Part shown: positions 1-11,492 of the stretch, in pieces
Numbering within the stretch: the stretch's first letter is position 1
How the letters are laid out: each line of letters begins with the position of its first letter
Source: Competibacteraceae bacterium UBA2788
Lineage (GTDB): Bacteria > Pseudomonadota > Gammaproteobacteria > Competibacterales > Competibacteraceae
Reading direction: 5' to 3'
Assembly: GCA_002352185.1 (NCBI GenBank)
Contig: DEHY01000071.1
Span: forward strand, 472-11,963
Length of the DNA stretch: 11,492 nucleotides
The notes under the pieces: generated by a model
Databases searched by the model: none
What the model saw: only the letters and a program-made list of their open reading frames with translations
What the model was told of the DNA's origin: nothing
Made by a program: the position numbers and the translations under genes

Positions 1-2174
1 TGGTCGAACGGCAGTTGCTGCACCACGCTGGTATGCGATTGCAGAAATTCGATCATGAAGCCGTCGTTGACATAACCCTCGTCATACAGCCGATTGAGCA
101 GCGTGTAATGCCAGAAACAATTGTGGTTGATGAAACAGGAAGCCTTGTAGGTGTGGGAATTTTCCACGCTGAAATCAACGACTGGCCCGTCATCGCGCTC
201 GATGGATTCGATGACCGTCAGATCGTCCTTGTCGAGGAACCACTTGACCGACGCCAGCGCATCCTTCAGGGCCTGCCGCTTGTACGACAGGCGAAAGCCG
301 ATCTTCCTTGCGAAGCGCTGGACATCCGCACCGGTGATGACGAGCCGGAAGGTCCCGTCCTGCTGCGGTCGCACGGAACTGACGATGCCCAGGTTCAGAA
401 TGAGCAGTTGCTCGACCCGCAATAATTCAAGGCTCTTGCTGACCAGGATGACTTGACGATCCTTGCGCGAGATGCAGCCATCGGTGTCGAAGTGCCCGCG
501 AAGGAAGGCGCGGACCACGGCCTCCGGCGAGCGCAGGATGATGTCGGGTACGGTCTTTCGTCCTGCGGCGCCCCAGCCGGTGGCGATCCCGAACGTTTGC
601 TTGAACAGCCGCGCCAGCACGGCGCTGTGGACCGTCGAGTTGAAGCGGTTGCGGTTCGGTCGGCGCGACGCCGTGACCCCAAAGCTCGCGTACATCGTCC
701 GCTCGAAAAAGTCCAATAGCTCCACATCCTGTGACGTCAGATTCACGCGGCTTGTGTCGACGAACCCATCCCCGATCACCTGGCCCAGCACTTCGGCCAG
801 GTCCGGTCCCAGGGTTTCAGGCCGGCGGGCCAAATCAGCGGGCGTTAGCAAGGCCCAAGGGTGATCGGGGTCGGCCTTGATCGCCTCCCACTCGTCAGCG
901 CACGCTTTTAACCGGACAACAGTCTGCGCGCCGACCGACAGGTCTGGCGCGGCGCGGCGCCATTTGTAGTAGGTACTCGTCGACACGTCATGCTTTTGGC
1001 AGACATCCGCAATACGAGGGCAAACTTTCAGCGTGTAATCAATCGGCGCTTCGGCGCTGGCGAAGACGCACTGACCGCGCCGGATCTCCACGGCATCACC
1101 GACTTTCAGGTTCTGTAGCTCGATCCATTCCCCACCGACGAGAATCTTGTGGTCGGCGCCGCCGTGCAGCTCGTATCCGTGCCGGGTACGGATGTGGATG
1201 CGTCGCTTCGCTGGATGGGTGAACCAGTTCACTACCCGATTGCCGTCCTCGACGCATCCGGAGAATTGCGAATCGACCAGTTCCTGTGCCCGCAAGAGAC
1301 CCTGATCCGTCACAATCAGGGTGTCGCCGGTCACGCAGGCCCAGCCTTCGTTCATCACCTGCGTCTGGCGCTGCGGATAAAAATACTGAGCGATCTTGCG
1401 GACGATCCGCACCAGTTCGCGTTGCCACGGTTCCAATAAAGGCGCATTTTTCTCGATGAAATACAGCAGGTTTTCCTGCGGCTCGGCTGGGAAGCGCCGG
1501 GAATCGGCGGCGACCGCCTCGGAAGGCTTGACCGGAATAGTCCGCCATAGATCATTAAGCTGCGATTGCAGATACTCTTCCCGGTCGTGCTGGCGCTGTT
1601 TCTCTTCATGCAGTGACAATGGCGCCGGATGCTTATAGCGATCCACCCCGTAATTCATCAGCGCGTGGCAGGAATCGAGAAACAATTCTACGGTTTCTTC
1701 GCCATGGCGCTCTTCGCACTCAGCGACATAATTGCGGGCGAATAGCAGGTAATCAATGATCGCGTCGGCGCTGGTCCAGGCCCGGAACAGATAATTGCCC
1801 TTGAAGAAAGAATTGTGTCCATAGGCAGCGTGGGCAATCACCAGCGCCTGCATGGTTGAGGTGTTCTCTTCCATCAGATAGGCAATGCAGGGATCGGAAT
1901 TAATCACGATCTCATAGGCCAGCCCCATTTGCCCGCGCCGGTAATTTTTCTCGGTCAGCACGAACTGCTTACCATAAGACCAGTGCTTATAGCCCAGCGG
2001 CATCCCCACTGAGGAATAGGCGTCCATCATCTGCTCTGCGGTAATGATTTCGATTTGGTTGGGGTAAGTGTCCAGGCCGAAATCTCCGGCAATCTGGCCG
2101 ATGACCTCGTTATAGCGTTCCAGCATCGGGAACGTCCATTCGGACGACTCGGAAATCAGTCGAGATGCACTCAT
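1..2174 (-). CDS. spoVR: SpoVR family protein interrupted by an intein (3' end outside window)
   Basis: The frame opens at ATG 2172-2174 and stays open to base 1, 724 full codons, so the gene runs off the left edge. Residues 1-279 are the N-terminal half of SpoVR (YcgB in E. coli): visible family blocks include [46 protein letters not shown] and [15 protein letters not shown]. The sequence reaches MNEGWA at residue 279, is interrupted by a 406-residue intein (residues 280-685), and resumes at residue 686 with [15 protein letters not shown]. Joined, this gives the uninterrupted SpoVR motif [15 protein letters not shown]. coli YcgB has Thr where this protein has Cys. SpoVR is needed for spore cortex formation in Bacillus; in non-sporing bacteria its biochemical role is unknown, but it travels with prkA and yeaH. 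The start overlaps the yeaH stop (ATGA), which implies translational coupling and last place in a three-gene operon. No stop or frameshift is seen in the visible part. Confidence 0.96.
120..1337 (-). other. Intein with LAGLIDADG homing endonuclease, in SpoVR
   Basis: This is an in-frame 406-residue protein-splicing element. Its first residue is Cys (codon 1335-1337) in the block A sequence [20 protein letters not shown]. Block B is around residues 54-67, ending GGADHKILV with the conserved His63; the Thr usual three residues before this His is Gly60. Block [10 protein letters not shown] (184-192), and block [11 protein letters not shown] (278-287), are the two LAGLIDADG motifs, with acidic residues D190 and D286. 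Block F is [15 protein letters not shown] (386-400), and block G ends FINHN with penultimate His405 and terminal Asn406, followed by Cys+1 of the host. All residues for class 1 splicing (Cys1, block B His, His-Asn, Cys+1) are present, so it should excise itself and join the SpoVR halves. Five sampled 60-base lines average about 65% GC against about 53% in five lines of the N-terminal host half, suggesting later arrival. Splicing itself is inferred. Confidence 0.95.
243..1040 (-). other. Homing endonuclease domain of the intein, with putative HTH
   Basis: Approximate span of the endonuclease, intein residues about 100-365, between splicing blocks B and F. It carries two LAGLIDADG motifs about 95 residues apart, as in single-chain two-motif enzymes that cut an intein-free allele at the insertion site. 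Both motif aspartates (D190, D286) remain, so the enzyme may be active. Before the first motif, residues 109-128 (bases 954-1013) read [20 protein letters not shown], which looks like a helix-turn-helix of the transposase/regulator kind and may add DNA contacts. The HTH is judged by pattern only; domain edges are rough. Confidence 0.8.
2171..2174 (-). promoter_or_regulatory. ATGA stop/start overlap coupling yeaH to spoVR
   Basis: The spoVR start ATG (2172-2174) shares bases with the yeaH stop TGA (2171-2173). No strong Shine-Dalgarno is seen in front of the spoVR start (GGCGCGCAGC precedes it). Ribosomes that finish yeaH probably restart on spoVR, keeping the two products in step. Confidence 0.8.
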
Positions 2175-3439
2175 GCTGCGCGCCTCTTGAACAAGTCCCG
2201 GAATACGGGATAGATGTCAGCCGGCCCATCAATCTGTCGCATCGCAAAATTGGGATGCGTTTCTCTCACCGCTTCATACGCTTCCCACAGGCTCTGGTGG
2301 CGATCCGGGGTAATTTCGATATAGGCGTAATAGCGCACGAACGGCATGATCCGCTGCAACAGCAAATCGCGGCAGGACGGTGAATCGTGATGCCAGTTAT
2401 CGCCATCCGAAGCCTGTGCAGTGTAAATGTTCCAACTGGAAATGGGATAGCGTTCAGTGATGATCTCGCTCATCAATTGCAGTGCGCTGGACACCACGGT
2501 GCCGCCGGTTTCCCGCGAGTAGAAAAACTCCTGTTCGTCTACTTCCTTGGCGACCGTATGATGGCGGATAAACACCACTTCAATCTTTTCGTAATTGCGC
2601 TTGAGAAACAGATAGAGCAGCGAGAAAAAACGCTTGGCTAAATCCTTGCGCGCCCGATCCATCGAGCCGGACACATCCATGATGCAGAACATCACCGCTT
2701 GAGTCGTCGGTTGTGGCTGCTTGATCCGATTGGTGTAGCGCAGGTCGAAGGTGTCAATAAAAGGCACGGCCCGAACCCGCGCCCGTAGATAGTTGATTTC
2801 CTCCACCAGTTCCTTGGCGCGAATTTCGTCTACTGGCGGCGCAGCCAGAAGTTGTTGCAATTCCTCTTCCGCCTCGCGCAGCCGACGGGTGTGGGGCGCA
2901 GCTAAAGCCATTCGCCGCGCCATCGCCCCTTTCAGTGAGCGCACAATGTCAATGTTGCCGGGGTTGCCGTCATTGCTGAACCCGGCGCGCACCGATTTGA
3001 ACTCGGTGGCTTTGGCTAACTGGGTTCGCAGCAGATTAGGCAATTCCAGATCCTCGAAAAACAGATCCAGAAATTCCTCACGCGACAATTCAAAGACAAA
3101 GTCATCCTCACCTTCGCCGCTATTACTGGCTTGACCACCTCCTGAACCCCCTCCCGCTCCACCTTTTGGCCGGGCGATCTGATCGCCGGTGACAAATTCC
3201 CGGTTGCCCGGATGGATCGCTTCGCGCCGGCCACCCGGCCCATGGCCAAAGACCGGTTCGGACAGGTCACGAGCGGGGATGTTGATCTTCTCGCCGCTAT
3301 CAATATCAGTAATGCTGCGGCCATTCATAGCCTCGGTCACGGCCTTCTTAATCTGGCTCTTGAAGCGCCGGATAAAACGCTGGCGATTGACGGCGCTTTT
3401 GTTTCTGCCGTCCAGCCGACGGTCGATAAGCGTGGCCAT
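2171..3439 (-). CDS. yeaH: YeaH/YhbH family protein (DUF444, vWA-like)
   Basis: The 422-residue product matches the E. coli YeaH length and order: N-terminal block FIDRRLxGxNKS-type (here [19 protein letters not shown]), [22 protein letters not shown], a glycine-rich linker (about 93-103), [15 protein letters not shown], then a von Willebrand A-like domain with the metal-site motif DVSGSMD at 255-261 and [11 protein letters not shown] further on. It ends [16 protein letters not shown]444 proteins are partners of the PrkA kinase in a conserved operon; the molecular job is unproven. The start is ATG 3437-3439 with Shine-Dalgarno GAGAGGAA (3447-3454) seven bases upstream. It lies 18 bases after prkA and overlaps spoVR by 4 bases. 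Reading frame is intact. Function beyond family membership is not visible from sequence. Confidence 0.96.
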
Positions 3440-3457: not shown

Positions 3458-5380
3458 TCAGGATGCCTTACGGACTCGCAAATACCAGTCGGACAGCAGT
3501 CGAACCTGCCTGGCGGTGTAGCCTTTTGCGACCATTCGATCCACAAATTCGGCGTGCTTCTTCTGCTCGTCCACGCTGGATTTGGCATTGAAACTGATCA
3601 CCGGCAGCAGATCCTCAGTACTTGAGAACATCTTCTTCTCGATCACCGCCCGCAGTTTCTCGTAACTGGTCCAGGCTGGATTGCGACCGGCGTTGTTGGC
3701 GCGCGCCCGCAATACGAAATTGACGATCTCGTTGCGAAAATCCTTGGGATTGCTGATGCCGGCAGGCTTCTCGATCTTCTCCAGTTCGGTGTTGAGCGCC
3801 GCCCGGTCGAATGATTCGCCGGTGTCGGGATCGCGGTATTCCTGATCCTGAATCCAGAAATCCGCATAGGTCACATAGCGATCAAAGATGTTCTGGCCGT
3901 ATTCGGAATAGGATTCCAGATAAGCCTGTTGCAATTCCTTGCCGATGAACTCGGCATAGCGCGGCGCCAGATAGCCCTTGAGATAGGACAAATATTTCTC
4001 TTCGACCTCCGACGTAAACTGCTCACGCTCAATCTGCCGCTCCAGCACATAAAGCAGATGCACCGGATTGGCGGCAACCTCGCTGTGATCGAAGTTGAAC
4101 ACCTGACTGAGAATTTTGAAGGCAAAACGGGTAGAGATGCCGGTCATGCCTTCATCTACCCCGGCGTAGTCGCGGTATTCCTGCATCGACTTGGCTTTGG
4201 GATCGGTGTCCTTGAGGTTTTCGCCGTCATAGACCCGAATCTTGGAGAAGATGCTGGAGTTCTCCGGATCTTTCACTCGCGTCAATACCGAGAATTGCGC
4301 CAGCATCTCCAGCGTGCCCGGCGCGCAAGGCGACTCGGCCAGTGAACTGTGAGCCAGCAGTTTCCGATAAATCTTCACCTCATCCGACACTCGCAGGCAA
4401 TAAGGCACCTTGACGATGTAAACCCGGTCGAGGAAGGCTTCATTATTCTTGTTGCCCTTGAACGACTGCCATTCCGATTCGTTGGAATGGGCCAGGATAA
4501 TCCCCTCGAACGGGATGGCCGACAGCCCTTCGGTACTGTTGTAGTTGCCTTCCTGAGTCGCCGTCAACAGCGGATGCAGTACCTTGATCGGCGCCTTGAA
4601 CATTTCGACGAATTCCATCAGGCCCCGGTTGGCGCGGCACAACGCGCCGGAGAAGCTGTAGGCGTCCGGGTCATTCTGGGCGAAATGTTCCAACTGGCGG
4701 ATATCCACCTTGCCCACCAGCGAGGAGATATCCTGATTGTTCTCATCCCCCGGCTCGGTCTTGGCGATGGCGATTTGGTGCAGCACCGATGGCCGCAGCT
4801 TGACCACTCGAAATTTGGTGATATCGCCGTTGAACTCACGCAGCCGCTTGGCCGCCCACGGCGACATGATATGGCGCAAATAACGGCGCGGAACGCCGTA
4901 GTCGTCTTCGAGAATCTGGCCGTCCTCGTCGGGATTGAACAGCCCCAGCGGCGATTCAAATACCGGGGATCCTTCAATCGCGTAGAACGGAATTCGCTCC
5001 ATCAGTTGCTTGAGCCGTTCAGCCAGCGACGATTTTCCGCCGCCCACCGGACCCAGCAGATAAAGAATCTGCTTCTTTTCCTCCAGCCCCTGGGCGGCAT
5101 GTTTGAGGTAGGACACGATCTGCTCGATGGCGTCCTCCATCCCATGGAATTCCTGGAAGGCGGGATAGATTTTGAGTACCTTGTTCTGAAAGATGCGCGA
5201 CAGCCGTGTGTCGTTGCGGGTGTCCACCATCTCCGGCTCGCCGATAGCCAGCAACAGCCGTTCGGCGGCGCTGGCGTAGGCCCCAGGTCCTTTTTTGCAC
5301 AAATCCAGATATTCCTGGAGTGAGAAGGTTTCCTCGCGGCTCTCTTCGTAGCGCGACAGGTAGCGGTTGAAAATTGTCAT
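3458..5380 (-). CDS. prkA: PrkA family serine protein kinase
   Basis: The 640-residue protein is nearly collinear with E. coli YeaG (644 residues). The N-terminal AAA-type domain has a Walker A motif GPVGGGKS at about 110-117, following MEDAIEQIVSYLKHAAQGLEE. Other family blocks are ENNQDISSLVGKVDIRQLEH, GIILAHSNESEW, NNEAFLDRVYIVKVPYCLRV, DYAGVDEGMTGISTRFAFK and the C-terminal PrkA domain with YGQNIFDRYVTYADFWIQDQ. PrkA proteins are described as serine kinases (eukaryote-like in E. coli YeaG) acting in stationary-phase and nitrogen-starvation responses; ATPase-linked protease activity has been proposed for the Bacillus homolog. Three in-frame starts compete: GTG 5389, ATG 5386 and ATG 5380. 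Only ATG 5380 (MTIFNRYLSRYEES) has proper spacing (8 bases) from AGAGAGG, so it is preferred and agrees with the E. coli N-terminus. First gene of the operon; a sigma-54 promoter candidate lies upstream. Confidence 0.97.
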   Translation of the reverse strand: MTIFNRYLSRYEESREETFSLQEYLDLCKKGPGAYASAAERLLLAIGEPEMVDTRNDTRLSRIFQNKVLKIYPAFQEFHGMEDAIEQIVSYLKHAAQGLEEKKQILYLLGPVGGGKSSLAERLKQLMERIPFYAIEGSPVFESPLGLFNPDEDGQILEDDYGVPRRYLRHIMSPWAAKRLREFNGDITKFRVVKLRPSVLHQIAIAKTEPGDENNQDISSLVGKVDIRQLEHFAQNDPDAYSFSGALCRANRGLMEFVEMFKAPIKVLHPLLTATQEGNYNSTEGLSAIPFEGIILAHSNESEWQSFKGNKNNEAFLDRVYIVKVPYCLRVSDEVKIYRKLLAHSSLAESPCAPGTLEMLAQFSVLTRVKDPENSSIFSKIRVYDGENLKDTDPKAKSMQEYRDYAGVDEGMTGISTRFAFKILSQVFNFDHSEVAANPVHLLYVLERQIEREQFTSEVEEKYLSYLKGYLAPRYAEFIGKELQQAYLESYSEYGQNIFDRYVTYADFWIQDQEYRDPDTGESFDRAALNTELEKIEKPAGISNPKDFRNEIVNFVLRARANNAGRNPAWTSYEKLRAVIEKKMFSSTEDLLPVISFNAKSSVDEQKKHAEFVDRMVAKGYTARQVRLLSDWYLRVRKAS

Positions 5381-5388
5381 CGTCATCA

Positions 5389-5395
5389 CCTCTCT
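5389..5395 (-). promoter_or_regulatory. Ribosome binding site of prkA
   Basis: AGAGAGG on the minus strand. It lies 8 bases from ATG 5380 but overlaps or abuts the alternative starts GTG 5389 and ATG 5386, so it decides for the shorter N-terminus. Confidence 0.8.
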
Positions 5396-6980: not shown

Positions 6981-7134
6981 ATCGGCGACCGAACGCTATA
7001 GCAATCCTGAATCCCCCCAACTCGCCTTTGCCAAAATCCCCCCGCTCGCGTCACTCGCGCCCCCCTTTGCCAAAGGGGGGTTGAGGGGATTTGGCTTTAT
7101 GCTCCGCCTACCATTTGCCCGCTACCGGTAAATC
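6981..7134. repeat. 154-base direct repeat, copy 1, with nested hairpin
   Basis: Matches 11189-11342 at 151 of 154 positions in the same orientation (offset 4208). The mismatches are in the hairpin loop and at two sites near the right end. Inside is a perfect 9-base stem (C6T3 at 7060-7068 with A3G6 at 7072-7080, loop GCC), flanked by outer arms GCCAAAATCCCC (near 7030) and GGGGATTTGGC (7085-7095) that pair with one extra A. The right end carries the last codons of an FG-GAP gene. It sits between convergent genes. The type is unknown: MITE-like element, bidirectional hairpin terminator or segmental duplication are all possible. Confidence 0.95.
7108..7134 (-). pseudogene. Orphan C-terminal tail of an FG-GAP-like gene
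   Basis: The minus strand encodes DLPVAGKW and a TAG stop, identical in protein to the last eight residues and stop of the partial gene at 11316-11492. Upstream of Asp the similarity stops (no FG-GAP residues are seen), so only a 9-codon relic remains. It was probably carried here with the repeat or left when a paralog was lost. Confidence 0.6.
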
Positions 7135-7162
7135 CCATCGCTCTTTAGCGCCATGGCATGCC

Positions 7163-7255: not shown

Positions 7256-9454
7256 TTACGGAGCGCACCCCTGACCGATGATCTGGCTAACGCGAGTCTG
7301 GAACTCCGAGGCGTTAACGAATGCTTGCCGCACCTGGTCGCGGGTAGAGCTGCTGAGTTGATTGACCCAGTAGTTGAAGCCGATCAGGTCGCCGTCCCGC
7401 CGCAGAAAGACGTAGTACAGATCGGCCACGAAGTCGCGGTCGCTGCGCTGACGGCTGGTGTATTCGGCGCTGGCGAGGAACTGGCTGGAGATGGATTCAA
7501 CTTCGACACCCACGGCAGCAGCGCTGGTGCATTGCGCGACGCGGAACCGGCCCAGCCAGAAGGCGAAGCCAGCATCATCGGGCAAACGGTTGAGGAAGCC
7601 CCGGTAGAAATCGCCCACGGTGGCGGTTTCGCTGCGGGCGGTGGTGGTGCCGAACAAGTTTTGCATAGCAACGCCGAATTCGGTCGAGAACAGGAAGCTG
7701 AACAGCACTACACTGCGCGGCAGGCCGGCGGTCAGCGGCTGGGTCCAGAAAGCCAATCCACTACTGTCGGGTTCGCGCTTGAAGAAGGTGCGGTAGAGGT
7801 CGGTGATGTACTGAGCATCGCTGGTGTTGCGGTTGAGGTATTCGGCGCTGGTGAAGAACAGACCGGCCATGACCCGGAACACATCCTTGATGTCCAGGCC
7901 CAGACCGCTTGCCCGGGCAGCTTCGTTCCTCCAGGAGGCTAAGCCGTTGATATCTGCGGTTCGGCCTAAAATCGCCTGGTAATAGTGTTCGATCAGGACT
8001 TGATCAGGCGGAAGCGCGCCTGCCTCCACCGCGCCGATGTCCACGGCGCTGCCCATGATGCGCGATACATAGCCGCGCTGGTCGGTGGTGACGCCGACCG
8101 GGACCAGAGTGCTATCGCCGGCGTCAATCATCAGGCTGCCAGGTAAATAGGTCAGTGTGGGACCACCGTTGTTAACCAGCGGGCCGATGGCAGTGCTGAT
8201 GAGTCCGGGCAGAATAATGTCGCTGGCGACCGGGCTGGCGTTCACCAGTCCCGAAACGCCGTTGACGCCAAACAGGTTGTGTCCGTCGGAAACGAACGTG
8301 CCATAGTTTCCGATTTCCCTGGCCGTTGGCGCGGTGTTGCCAGCCACCACGCTGTTACCAATGGACAGGAGGGTGTTGTCGTCGATGTAAATGCCGCCGC
8401 TTCCCGCACTGGCTATATTCCCGGACAGGGTGTTGTTGACCATTTTGAAGACGAAATTACCATCTACGCAAAGGCCGCCACCCCACTTCGCCACATTCTC
8501 GGACAGGGTGTTATTGTGGAAGGCAACAGTCGCGGCTCCTGTGATGTAAATCCCCCCGCCGCAACTGCTTCTGGCTGCATTGCGAAAAAAGGTGTTATGG
8601 GTGATAGTCGCTGTCAAGCCGCTGGAATAAATCCCCCCGCCGGAATAATCGGCGGTGACTGAGTTGTCGGACAGTGTGCTATTGCTGATGGTTAACGTCC
8701 CGTCGCTACAGATCCCTCCGCCCCCGTATTCCCTCTTATTCGCCGACAGAGTGCTGTGGTTAACGGTCACCGTCCCTCCAGAGCGACCGCAGTTATAAAT
8801 CCCACTCTCCTGGTTACCGGATAGGGTACTGTGGTTGACAGTCACTGTCCCGCCGTATCGGTTGTAAATCCCGCTGGCCGCATTATCGGACAGGGTGCTG
8901 TTGTTCACCGCCAAAACGGCGTTTGCGCCATGGTTATAAATCCCACTAGCCACATTGGCAGACAGGATGCTGTTGTTCACGGTCAGCGTCCCGGCATTAT
9001 CAATCCCGTTGCGGCCATTGGTGAGCGTTAGCCCGGAGATAGTTACGGTTGCGTTGCCGCCGACCGTAAAAAGGGTGACACCGTTGCCGAACAGGGTCAG
9101 CGTGCCGGCCCCCGGTCCAATCAGGTCAAGCTTGCCGTTGATGCTGAAATTGCCTACGGTTAACAGCTTGCCGCTGAGGCCGGATTGAAACAGGATGGTG
9201 TTGGCGCCCGCGCCGGGGGCGTTATTGGCATTGAGGAGGGCCTGGCGCAGCGAACCGATGCCGCTGTCATTGAGATTGGTGACGGTGAAGATGGCCGCGC
9301 TGGTGGACTGGCTAAAAATAAACAATAAAATCAATAATATATATGCAATGGGGGGGGTAATGCATGACGAGACATCGGGATTACTCCTGCTCAAGGGGTG
9401 TGGATGAACGTTGCTCGAATGGGACAAACCCAGCGTAAATTGTAGGCGATCCAA
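7256..9454 (-). CDS. Secreted beta-helix protein with choice-of-anchor Q and DUF4214 repeats
   Basis: The open frame of 732 residues starts at TTG 9454, which has no ribosome binding site. A hydrophobic signal segment IAYILLILLFIFSQSTSAA (about 36-54) is followed by IFTVTNLNDSGIGSLRQAL, the CSLREA-type start of many surface proteins. Residues about 130-380 form a right-handed beta-helix of repeats such as LTVNNSTLSDNAASGIYN. Residues about 427-478 (NNGGPTLTYLPGS, MIDAGDS, TDQRG, VDIGAVE) form a choice-of-anchor Q domain. From 487 to the end, four DUF4214-type motifs occur (YYQAILGRTADINGLASW, LYRTFFKREPDSSGLAFW, FYRGFLNRLPDDAGFAFW, LYYVFLRRDGDLIGFNYW). It is probably exported and cell-surface or extracellular; ligand unknown. 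The well-supported start ATG 9373-9375 is one base out of frame because of an 8-base G/C tract (9350-9357); with nine bases the protein would begin MSRHALPPPIAYILL. Phase variation or a sequencing indel is likely. Confidence 0.85.
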   Translation of the reverse strand: MDRLQFTLGLSHSSNVHPHPLSRSNPDVSSCITPPIAYILLILLFIFSQSTSAAIFTVTNLNDSGIGSLRQALLNANNAPGAGANTILFQSGLSGKLLTVGNFSINGKLDLIGPGAGTLTLFGNGVTLFTVGGNATVTISGLTLTNGRNGIDNAGTLTVNNSILSANVASGIYNHGANAVLAVNNSTLSDNAASGIYNRYGGTVTVNHSTLSGNQESGIYNCGRSGGTVTVNHSTLSANKREYGGGGICSDGTLTISNSTLSDNSVTADYSGGGIYSSGLTATITHNTFFRNAARSSCGGGIYITGAATVAFHNNTLSENVAKWGGGLCVDGNFVFKMVNNTLSGNIASAGSGGIYIDDNTLLSIGNSVVAGNTAPTAREIGNYGTFVSDGHNLFGVNGVSGLVNASPVASDIILPGLISTAIGPLVNNGGPTLTYLPGSLMIDAGDSTLVPVGVTTDQRGYVSRIMGSAVDIGAVEAGALPPDQVLIEHYYQAILGRTADINGLASWRNEAARASGLGLDIKDVFRVMAGLFFTSAEYLNRNTSDAQYITDLYRTFFKREPDSSGLAFWTQPLTAGLPRSVVLFSFLFSTEFGVAMQNLFGTTTARSETATVGDFYRGFLNRLPDDAGFAFWLGRFRVAQCTSAAAVGVEVESISSQFLASAEYTSRQRSDRDFVADLYYVFLRRDGDLIGFNYWVNQLSSSTRDQVRQAFVNASEFQTRVSQIIGQGCAP
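8380..9010 (-). repeat. Degenerate intragenic repeats coding the beta-helix
   Basis: Units of roughly 55-80 bases encode turns of the beta-helix. They share the plus-strand phrase GACAGGGTGCTGTTGTTCAC in variable form and ATAAATCCC(A/G)CT. Unit length and sequence vary, and all remain in frame, so this is repeat-protein coding sequence and not a mobile or CRISPR array. The edges are approximate. Confidence 0.75.
9350..9357 (-). repeat. 8-base homopolymer (C on coding strand) at the signal peptide
   Basis: Eight G on the plus strand (eight C in the coding direction) lie between the best start codon (9375) and the hydrophobic core of the signal peptide. Nine C would put ATG 9375 in frame; seven C would put ATG 9365 in frame. 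With eight, ATG 9375 reads 14 codons and stops. Tracts of this kind are classic slipped-strand switches; they are also common places for assembly errors. Confidence 0.75.
9373..9388 (-). promoter_or_regulatory. Strong RBS and ATG, out of frame with the beta-helix gene
   Basis: AGGAG (9384-9388) stands eight bases before ATG (9373-9375), the only well-formed initiation signal for the gene. The ATG frame differs from the main frame by one base at the G8 tract. This makes it the likely true start in the ON state. Confidence 0.7.
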
Positions 9455-9594: not shown

Positions 9595-11148
9595 ATGCCC
9601 AACACCCGCCGCAAATTGCCCATTGGCATCCAGACCTTCGCCAAAATCCGCGAGGATGATTACTACTATGTGGACAAGACGCGAATGGCCTGGCGACTGG
9701 CCCAGGAATCCGGCTATTTCTTCCTCTCCCGCCCGCGCCGGTTCGGCAAGAGCCTGCTACTCGATACGCTGAAGGAACTGTTTGAGGGCAACGAACCGCT
9801 GTTTCGCGGCCTGTATATTCATGACCGCTGGGACTGGAAGACCATCTATCCAGTTATTCGCCTGAGCTTTGGCGGCGGGGTGTTGAAATCCCCGCAGAAT
9901 TTGAACGAGGCGCTGCATCGGCAGTTGGATGAACAGGAACACCGTCATGCGCTGCCAGCCCGCTATCCCGATCTGCGCAGCCGCTTCCATGATTTGATCA
10001 CCCGGCGCTGTGAACAAACCGGGCAGCGGGTGGTGGTGCTGGTGGACGAATACGACAAGCCGATTCTCGACAACATCACTGACCGCGAGACCGCCCTGGC
10101 GATGCGGGAAGCTCTCAAGGATTTATACAGCGTGATCAAGGAAGCCGATGCCTCGACCCGTTTCGCTCTCCTGGCCGGAGTGTCGAAATTTAACAAGGTC
10201 AGCCTGTTTTCCGGGCTTAACAATTTGAACGATATCACTGTGGATGCGAACTACTCGGCGATTTGCGGTTATACCGAAACCGATGTGGATACCGTATTCG
10301 CGCCGGAACTGGAGGGATTGGATCGGGAGGAGATTCGCCGCTGGTACAACGGCTACAACTGGCTGGGCGAAGCGGTCTACAACCCCTTTGATTTGCTATT
10401 GCTGTTCGACAAGCGCCAGTTTCACCCATGGTGGTTTGAAACGGGAACCCCGGGTTTTCTGGTCAAATTACTGGCTGAGCGCGGCTTCTTTACGCCGAAT
10501 CTGGCCCGACTGCGCACCGGGATGGAACTGCTGTCCTCATTTGACGTGGAGCAAATCGCTATCGAAGCGCTGCTGTTCCAGACCGGCTATCTGACCCTTC
10601 ACCAAGCCGAAGAACCTCTGCTGGGTCACTGGATTTACACCTTGGGCTACCCCAACCACGAAGTGGAATCCAGCCTCAACGCCAGCCTGCTGACCGTCTA
10701 CACCGATGACCCCAGCCAGAGTTTCGCCCACCGGTTGCGCTTGCTGGATTTGCTGTTGGCCCACGATTTAGCCGGATTAAAAGACCTGTTCCAAGCCTTC
10801 TTCGCCAGCATCCCGCATCAGTGGTATGACAATAACCCAATAGCCCGGTACGAAGGCTATTACGCTAGCGTCTTTTACAGCTACTTTGCTGCCCTGGGGT
10901 TGGACATCCTCCTGGAAGACGCTACGCATCAGGGGCGCATTGACATGACGGTGAAGTTCCGAGGGCGGATTTACCTGTTTGAATTCAAGGTGGTGGAGTT
11001 ATTCCCGGACGGTCGCGCCCTGCAACAAATCAAGGACAGGGGCTATGCCGAGAAATACCGGGCGCTCGGTCAGCCGATTCACCTGATCGGCATCGAATTT
11101 AGCCGGGCCGAGCGCAATATAGTAGGGTTTGAAGTGGAGACGGCTTAG
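9595..11148 (+). CDS. AAA-ATPase-like / PD-(D/E)XK nuclease family protein
   Basis: The 517-residue product has the usual two-part layout of the AAA-ATPase_like (PF09820) plus PDDEXK_9 (PF08011) family. The N-terminus LPIGIQTFAKIREDDYYYVDKT is typical up to one residue choice; the P-loop variant is RPRRFGKS (46-53) and Walker B is VVVLVDEYDKP (146-156). The C-terminal nuclease-like fold shows GRID (447-450), YLFEFKV with E463 and K465, and ALQQIKDRGYAEKY (475-488), so the PD-(D/E)XK active-site residues appear present. Members are often found in many copies per genome in accessory regions; no function is established, though DNA cleavage or mobile-element roles are suggested by the folds. The start ATG 9595 has only a weak GGA about nine bases upstream but matches the family start. 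It is divergent from the beta-helix gene and followed by the second repeat. Confidence 0.9.
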   Translation: MPNTRRKLPIGIQTFAKIREDDYYYVDKTRMAWRLAQESGYFFLSRPRRFGKSLLLDTLKELFEGNEPLFRGLYIHDRWDWKTIYPVIRLSFGGGVLKSPQNLNEALHRQLDEQEHRHALPARYPDLRSRFHDLITRRCEQTGQRVVVLVDEYDKPILDNITDRETALAMREALKDLYSVIKEADASTRFALLAGVSKFNKVSLFSGLNNLNDITVDANYSAICGYTETDVDTVFAPELEGLDREEIRRWYNGYNWLGEAVYNPFDLLLLFDKRQFHPWWFETGTPGFLVKLLAERGFFTPNLARLRTGMELLSSFDVEQIAIEALLFQTGYLTLHQAEEPLLGHWIYTLGYPNHEVESSLNASLLTVYTDDPSQSFAHRLRLLDLLLAHDLAGLKDLFQAFFASIPHQWYDNNPIARYEGYYASVFYSYFAALGLDILLEDATHQGRIDMTVKFRGRIYLFEFKVVELFPDGRALQQIKDRGYAEKYRALGQPIHLIGIEFSRAERNIVGFEVETA

Positions 11149-11188: not shown

Positions 11189-11342
11189 ATCGGCGACCGA
11201 ACGCTATAGCAATCCTGAATCCCCCCAACTCGCCTTTGCCAAAATCCCCCCGCTCGCGTCACTCGCGCCCCCCTTTGACAAAGGGGGGTTGAGGGGATTT
11301 GGCTTTATGCTCCGCCTACCACTTGCCCGCTACCGGCAAATC
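11189..11342. repeat. 154-base direct repeat, copy 2, with nested hairpin
   Basis: Second copy of 6981-7134, same orientation, 3 mismatches. The 9-base stem lies at 11268-11276 and 11280-11288 with loop GAC in place of GCC, so the stem is conserved while the loop varied. Bases 11316-11342 are coding: they hold the end of the FG-GAP-like gene. It lies between convergent genes, as copy 1 does. Together the copies form direct repeats 4208 bases apart, able to recombine and delete the segment between. Confidence 0.95.
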
Positions 11343-11492
11343 GCCTTGCTGGCCGAAACTGCCGAACAGGCATTTATCCTGCCCGCCGTCCTGCTGGCAG
11401 CCATCCCATTGCCCATTACCGTTGTAGTCGAGATACCAGGTTCCGTTGCGGAACACCCCGACCTTGGCTTTGCCGTCGCCGTTCCAGTCGCC
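11316..11492 (-). CDS. FG-GAP/VCBS-like repeat protein, C-terminal end (partial)
   Basis: The last 58 codons and TAG stop of a gene that enters from the right edge. It reads GDWNGDGKAKVGVFRNGTWY, then LDYNGNGQWDGCQQDGG and ends FGSFGQQGDLPVAGKW. The DWNGDGKAKVGVFR motif is the calcium-binding-like DxNGDG loop of FG-GAP/VCBS beta-propeller or solenoid repeats found in exported proteins. The closing DLPVAGKW looks like the start of a further repeat (family repeats continue as GDWNGDG), cut short by the stop. The N-terminus and total length lie outside the window. Its last nine codons belong to the 154-base repeat. Confidence 0.8.
   Translation of the reverse strand, partial: GDWNGDGKAKVGVFRNGTWYLDYNGNGQWDGCQQDGGQDKCLFGSFGQQGDLPVAGKW

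Follow-up and report, generated by a model that had tools for sequence, protein, structure and literature searches.

The window analysed here, the whole stretch of 11,492 nucleotides (nt) from contig DEHY01000071.1 of Competibacteraceae bacterium UBA2788, begins on its minus strand with the gene spoVR. Its frame spans window 3-2174, and its product matched PF04293 in two stretches at 442.9 bits against a cut-off of 27 (Pfam). The gene carries an in-frame insert of 406 residues after the motif NEGWA, which we read as a complete, probably active mobile intein. A caret marks an insertion point below, so that the site is written NEGWA^C, and +1 denotes the first residue of the C-extein. The parts of the intein and of its host are as follows.

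120..1337, minus strand: intein, 406 residues, between SpoVR A279 and the +1 residue (from coordinates, translation, families and fold)
1053..1337, minus strand: N-terminal Hint part, residues 1-95 (boundary approximate), with TIGR01445 at protein residues 280-346
1335-1337, minus strand: codon of Cys1
1149-1151, minus strand: codon of the block B His, H63
888..1016, minus strand: helix-turn-helix (HTH)-like module, residues 108-150 (HTH_Tnp_1, 9.7e-6, 26.2 bits, cut-off 24.1)
231..821, minus strand: LAGLIDADG endonuclease part, residues 173-369 (LAGLIDADG_3; model alignment with I-Tsp061I over 173-369)
765..791, minus strand: LAGLIDADG motif 1, VLGQVIGDG, residues 183-191
477..503, minus strand: LAGLIDADG motif 2, LRGHFDTDG, residues 279-287
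120..221, minus strand: C-terminal Hint part, residues 373-406 (boundary approximate), ending in His405-Asn406
120-122, minus strand: codon of Asn406
117..119, minus strand: +1 residue of the C-extein, Cys (Thr at all 23 family loci read that lack the intein)
1338..2174, minus strand: SpoVR N-extein, 279 residues (PF04293, 1.2e-132)
3..119, minus strand: SpoVR C-extein, leaving the window (assembly gap farther on, at L004:469-470)

On re-reading the sequence, we found the coordinates of the insert, its length of 406 residues, Cys1, H63, the two LAGLIDADG motifs, the terminal His-Asn and the Cys at +1 just as the initial annotation, made from this DNA alone, had described them. The reading frame of the insert contains no stop, the remaining five frames hold 6 to 17 stops each, and none of 2000 base-shuffled versions of the insert was still open. 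Together with this open frame, Cys1, H63, His405-Asn406 and Cys+1 are the hallmarks of a class 1 intein. LAGLIDADG_3 (PF14528) matched two stretches of the insert (4.9e-22, Pfam), both LAGLIDADG motifs keep their acidic residue, and the NCBIfam model intein_Nterm (TIGR01445) scored 26.7 bits, above its cut-off of 24.5. In the predicted structure, both the Hint (splicing-domain) fold and the LAGLIDADG fold are present, and the HTH-like module forms helices at residues 109-115, 120-127 and 137-154; it is probably the accessory DNA-binding part of the endonuclease. From a model of the precursor P0003, a database protein, we concluded nothing (predicted local distance difference test, pLDDT, 81.4, falling below 50 at both junctions; predicted template modelling score, pTM, 0.52). 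Family models, motifs and predicted fold thus support the earlier claim of a complete intein at NEGWA^C in SpoVR.

A search of the genome found a single spoVR locus. Shortly outside the window the contig is interrupted by an 'nn' assembly gap (L004:469-470), after which the C-terminus of SpoVR continues in a different frame. P0003 (908 residues) differs at one residue over the shared 724 and is continuous across the gap position. Because P0003 runs through the gap, spoVR was taken as intact, and its reading as a frameshifted gene or pseudogene was rejected, the frame break being that of the assembly gap.

Three protein searches returned at least 181 SpoVR proteins, some of them fragments, with intein sequence at the same site; the third listed 120 of 1071 matches, all 120 with PF04293. 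Since this set was found via the intein, its counts are silent on the fraction of SpoVRs without one. Among the matches listed, Cys1 was present in all 178 readable cases and the block B His in 180 of 180, and the terminal His-Asn was kept in 178 of 179, with Leu-Asn in P0112 as the exception. The acidic residue of motif 1 was retained in 176 of 181 (replaced in P0009, P0038, P0047, P0182 and P0199) and that of motif 2 in 175 of 180 (replaced in P0043, P0047, P0093, P0105 and P0175). P0047 shows decay, its motif 1 Asp being replaced by Gly and its HTH region shortened. The source names of the carriers include Candidatus Competibacter, Rubrivivax, Polyangiaceae, Myxococcota, Planctomycetota, Gemmatimonadota, Acidobacteria and Bradymonadia; Allochromatium palmeri and three Competibacteraceae metagenome-assembled genomes (MAGs) are further carriers. 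In the 178 readable sequences the residue three before the block B His and the +1 residue combined as Gly/Cys (52), Ser/Ser (125) or Ala/Ser (1). This pattern is no evidence of a functional coupling between the two positions, as it reflects one deep split in a first tree, a split that a second tree did not resolve.

The distribution in the family is patchy. The full intein was found in 5 of 39 Competibacteraceae genomes, spread over four genera, and in one of the eight genomes of the UBA2788 genus. A SpoVR search of 37 family genomes, UBA2788 included, gave 28 readable sites, five with the intein and 23 without; in the remaining genomes, several of them incomplete, spoVR matches were absent or partial. 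Within the UBA2788 genus, spoVR was readable and free of the intein in six genomes. Of 369 class genomes and 398 phylum genomes sampled, only UBA2788 held a full-length copy. Forty other class genomes gave weak partial matches, mostly in long frames (best 8.6e-16), which we took for other inteins.

The residue at +1 follows the intein within the family, being Thr at 23 of 23 intein-free loci and Cys in 5 of 5 carriers, and the spliced product therefore differs from intein-free kin. Removal of the insert restores SpoVR by its letters, as the initial annotation had it, but not 'exactly' by comparison with those relatives. The tie between Cys and intein in the family would be expected if homing had copied the adjoining codon, and is a possible mark of co-conversion. 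At five of the 23 intein-free family loci (L016, L017, L028, L029 and L030) the site is preceded by NEGHA instead of NEGWA, with His for Trp, which could be chance or resistance to homing. In the class at large, 60 intein-free sites from 229 genomes, counted only where they match the motif pattern, had Thr (28), Ser (18) or Cys (14) at +1. All three residues can act as the +1 nucleophile, according to the available part of PMC2814812, and thus a splicing nucleophile is on offer at the site even where there is no intein. Cys at +1 in the absence of an intein occurs, by pattern, in the SpoVR of 14 of the 229 genomes, L038 and 13 others; it may be what a lost intein left behind, or may mark a site open to a new one.

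The initial annotation placed the insertion at the most conserved site of the host protein. Among 24 intein-free SpoVRs assembled without a motif filter, the 10-residue segment at the site ranked 67 of 493 in conservation; it ranked 3 of 493 both in a set of 55 sequences enriched by motif search and in the set of intein carriers. The comparison supports a conserved site, less sharply than first claimed.

We then compared divergence in intein and extein. Between UBA2788 and the four other family carriers, silent divergence was lower in the intein than in the extein by 0.15-0.22, with intervals below zero; among those four carriers the difference was 0.04-0.10, and the interval lay below zero in two of six pairs. 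The pairs with UBA2788 used only the first 38 C-extein codons. In the pairs with G031 the C-exteins look partly misread (extein pN 0.09-0.14), and such pairs are weak where UBA2788 is not a member. The GC content at third codon positions (GC3) was 0.77 in the UBA2788 intein and 0.68 in its N-extein; inteins from the other family carriers had 0.76-0.81. The ratio of nonsynonymous to synonymous differences (pN/pS) of the intein against the other family carriers was 0.14-0.17. Silent divergence and GC3 support a probable lateral gain within the family, and inform less about the deeper history.

Collectively, these results favour, with a probability of roughly 0.85, a complete and probably active mobile intein in the sole spoVR found, capable of splicing and homing, which would have reached this genome laterally. 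We infer splicing, DNA cutting and the direction of transfer from the intact residues, the predicted fold and the distribution. After translation, Cys1 would start protein splicing, assisted by His63 and His405-Asn406, with Cys+1 accepting the N-extein; the 406-residue intein would be released and a spliced SpoVR (NEGWA-CFWH) left. Once free, the intein would act as a homing endonuclease of the LAGLIDADG type, equipped with an accessory HTH-like module. Its probable target is spoVR lacking the intein, cut in the region of the NEGWA codons, and during repair the cut gene would receive a copy of the intein together with the +1 codon next to it. The intein itself would have arrived laterally, probably from another Competibacteraceae lineage. 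The patchy distribution and the +1 pattern are compatible with cutting of an intein-free allele, and together with the lower silent divergence they make the insert look like a homing element.

Several observations weigh against this reading. The intein profiles bore out the initial annotation only in part: TIGR01445 passed its cut-off, but Intein_splicing (PF14890) scored 32.4 bits, slightly under its cut-off of 35.8. Inteins usually have Thr three residues before the block B His; the UBA2788 intein has Gly, and nearly all its kin have Ser or Gly. Against A. palmeri, the UBA2788 intein had no silent-site deficit (-0.008), and in the other four carriers the intein was more diverged than the extein, with the interval above zero in three of four. 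Silent sites are near saturation and GC3 differs between lineages, so the silent-site comparison is suggestive only. Intein and extein trees broadly agree, with a rank correlation of 0.90 when all pairs are taken, of 0.79 for the proteobacterial core and of 0.36 for the Myxococcota-type clade. The tree agreement and the missing deficit against A. palmeri fit a long joint descent at larger distance.

Three other explanations were weighed. The intein may splice while its endonuclease no longer cuts, as a relic of earlier homing. Relatives with damaged LAGLIDADG motifs exist, and activity cannot be read from sequence, but both motif acids are kept in the UBA2788 copy and in the four other family copies, and the low pN/pS of the intein also speaks against a relic; we consider it unlikely. 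Somewhat less likely still is inheritance from an ancestor of the family followed by many losses. The broad agreement of the trees and the presence of carriers in four genera would fit such a history, which would however need many precise losses (23 of 28 readable loci are empty), each with the +1 Cys turned back to Thr, and the silent divergence and GC3 of the UBA2788 intein point to a later arrival.

We give the least credit to the suggestion of the initial annotation, a retained regulatory switch, in which redox- or stress-dependent splicing of SpoVR would control a stress operon post-translationally. The Cys residues at 1 and +1, the prkA and DUF444 genes upstream and the low pN/pS of the intein are in keeping with such control, and redox-sensitive splicing has been reported for other inteins (PMC5874633, in its available part). 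Yet spoVR is free of intein in six genomes of the same genus and at 23 of 28 readable family loci, the retained endonuclease residues are explained by homing alone, and the pattern found is the trace of a homing element, which would be identical without any regulatory role. We retain a mobile, probably laterally acquired intein as the best account of the locus.

SpoVR and its inteins also occur in phages and viral contigs. Nine phage records contained SpoVR matches; five of them are Thermus phages and three are genomes of 634-642 kb that lack annotation. A SpoVR of a jumbo Ralstonia phage is already in print (PMC8504454, available part). In IMG/VR, SpoVR relatives are common, and the best 80 of 176 stretches were examined. 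In-frame spoVR inserts were present in 7 of 82 viral loci (no frequency, as one of the two peptide patterns behind 80 of these loci favours a NEGWA intein and those 80 are the best matches of a longer list), namely eight inserts at four sites, six detected by script and two, in L099, by eye. L097 (IMG/VR) carries a member of the same intein family at NEGWA^, with 35% identity to the UBA2788 intein and 76% to P0087. L095, L096 and L099 hold relatives two codons upstream, at NEG^, with NEG-CA as the spliced product. The one in L095 (L095:2158-4065; LR756504.1, an uncultured 636-kb phage) is a 129-residue mini-intein (NEG^C...HN^CATF), 42% identical to the UBA2788 intein over about 85-88 residues. 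Another, weakly related lineage lies after the Gln of PQxQ in L120 and L133. L121 (5926-8337) has an insert at NEGWA^ without a BLAST match to the UBA2788 intein family and with 28% identity to the second insert of L099, located at GHS^; these two end in Gly-Asn, had no intein model reported over them and are intein-like by motif only. Because the L121 insert, unmatched to that family, shares the exact site, NEGWA^ may have been colonised more than once. The metagenome SpoVR P0051 adds DAY^, so that the five insertion sites are NEGWA^, NEG^, after the Gln of PQxQ, GHS^ and DAY^.

Four of these contigs have virus-type genes next to spoVR, namely those for a virion structural protein in L097 and in L133, a tail fibre and a DNA polymerase in L121, and PhoH, MazG, thymidylate synthase and HNH endonucleases in L096. 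Among three neighbouring proteins tested in L095, two were DNA methyltransferases; four tested in L120 gave only an unknown family and thymidylate kinase, and prkA and DUF444 also adjoin spoVR there. Searched directly, the UBA2788 intein matched one plasmid record (29%) and six phage records, five at 21-25% identity, the sixth being LR756504.1; a pattern search of viral contigs gave 11 stretches with no relative among them. In a tree with the Myxococcota-type clade as its root, all 17 bacterial inteins of the UBA2788 kind grouped together, as one clade inside the inteins of eight SpoVRs (supports 96/90, 95/91 and 97/89), in a topology for which the root is assumed and in which two long viral rows meet. 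The exteins of all eight scored higher to viral than to sampled bacterial SpoVRs, P0050 by 4 bits only, in a comparison where the bacterial sample was one class and the eight are known without their contigs. A phage origin of these inteins is a possibility, not a result. Tentatively, bacteria and phages may share SpoVR as an intein hotspot, one that has at least five sites and at least three lineages without mutual BLAST match, one lineage occupying two sites two codons apart; the gamma- and betaproteobacterial SpoVR inteins, that of UBA2788 among them, would descend from phage-borne spoVR inteins, spread by phages.

Upstream of spoVR, the window contains two further genes of the locus.

2171..3439, minus strand: DUF444 protein (PF04285, 3.7e-186), which we take to be YeaH-like
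3458..5389, minus strand: PrkA (PF08298, 9.8e-181; PF06798, 1.4e-67)

Farther on are a DUF4214 protein with beta-helix repeats (7256-9454, minus strand), an AAA-ATPase-like protein with a PD-(D/E)XK nuclease part (9595-11148, plus strand), and a direct repeat of 162 nt, 96% identical, at 6981-7142 and 11189-11350 (spacing 4208). Up to an E value of 10, a profile of 39 intein-free SpoVRs had no match among solved structures. SpoVR might be a zinc-peptidase (invariant H115, H120, N275 and E276); among the papers listed by a literature search on this reading, none dealt with SpoVR.

That SpoVR is not a commonly listed intein host, as first noted, agrees with our literature searches, outside which the two main intein surveys lie. 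With these surveys not covered, no paper linking SpoVR and inteins was found in the open literature, so that absence from print is not established, and no SpoVR host appeared among the papers listed on phage inteins and sporulation. The one paper found to pair inteins with Competibacter concerns other hosts, and intein and 'spore cortex' co-occur in one paper in separate contexts. Inteins as a kind are known, and accounts of them mostly centre on hosts that serve replication, repair and recombination (PMC5874633, available part); SpoVR as a host with several sites was found in no paper searched, the two main surveys aside. SpoVR is a stress-related protein whose biochemistry is unclear. That its bacterial and phage versions have taken up inserts at five positions suggests that a conserved sequence, and occurrence in phage as well as host, can weigh as heavily as a role related to DNA. 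SpoVR also provides, ready-made in nature, intact, motif-damaged and mini-inteins as well as empty sites, on which the homing cycle can be tested.

Among known systems, the mycobacteriophage inteins (PMC5050341) are alike in having phage carriers and several sites in one host protein, there the terminase, and differ in having no SpoVR among the hosts named in the available text, from which 'SpoV' is absent. The Thermococcus litoralis VMA intein (PDB 7qsu, 7qss; PMC8966425, available part) occupies the P-loop site of a V-type ATPase subunit instead of SpoVR. It is expected to have a different accessory domain. PI-PfuI (1dq3), PI-PkoII (2cw7) and PI-SceI (1vde), presumably hosted by proteins other than SpoVR, are homing-endonuclease inteins that reached only 14-23% identity in alignments. 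The Mtu RecA splicing domain (2in8) and I-DmoI (4unb) each match a single part of the UBA2788 intein. Among the matches listed, the best with a host other than SpoVR was a MutS intein from an Anaerolineae MAG (P0055; 31% identity over 100%, E 1.1e-31), and above it ranked 52 SpoVR-hosted sequences, from 100% down to 33% identity.
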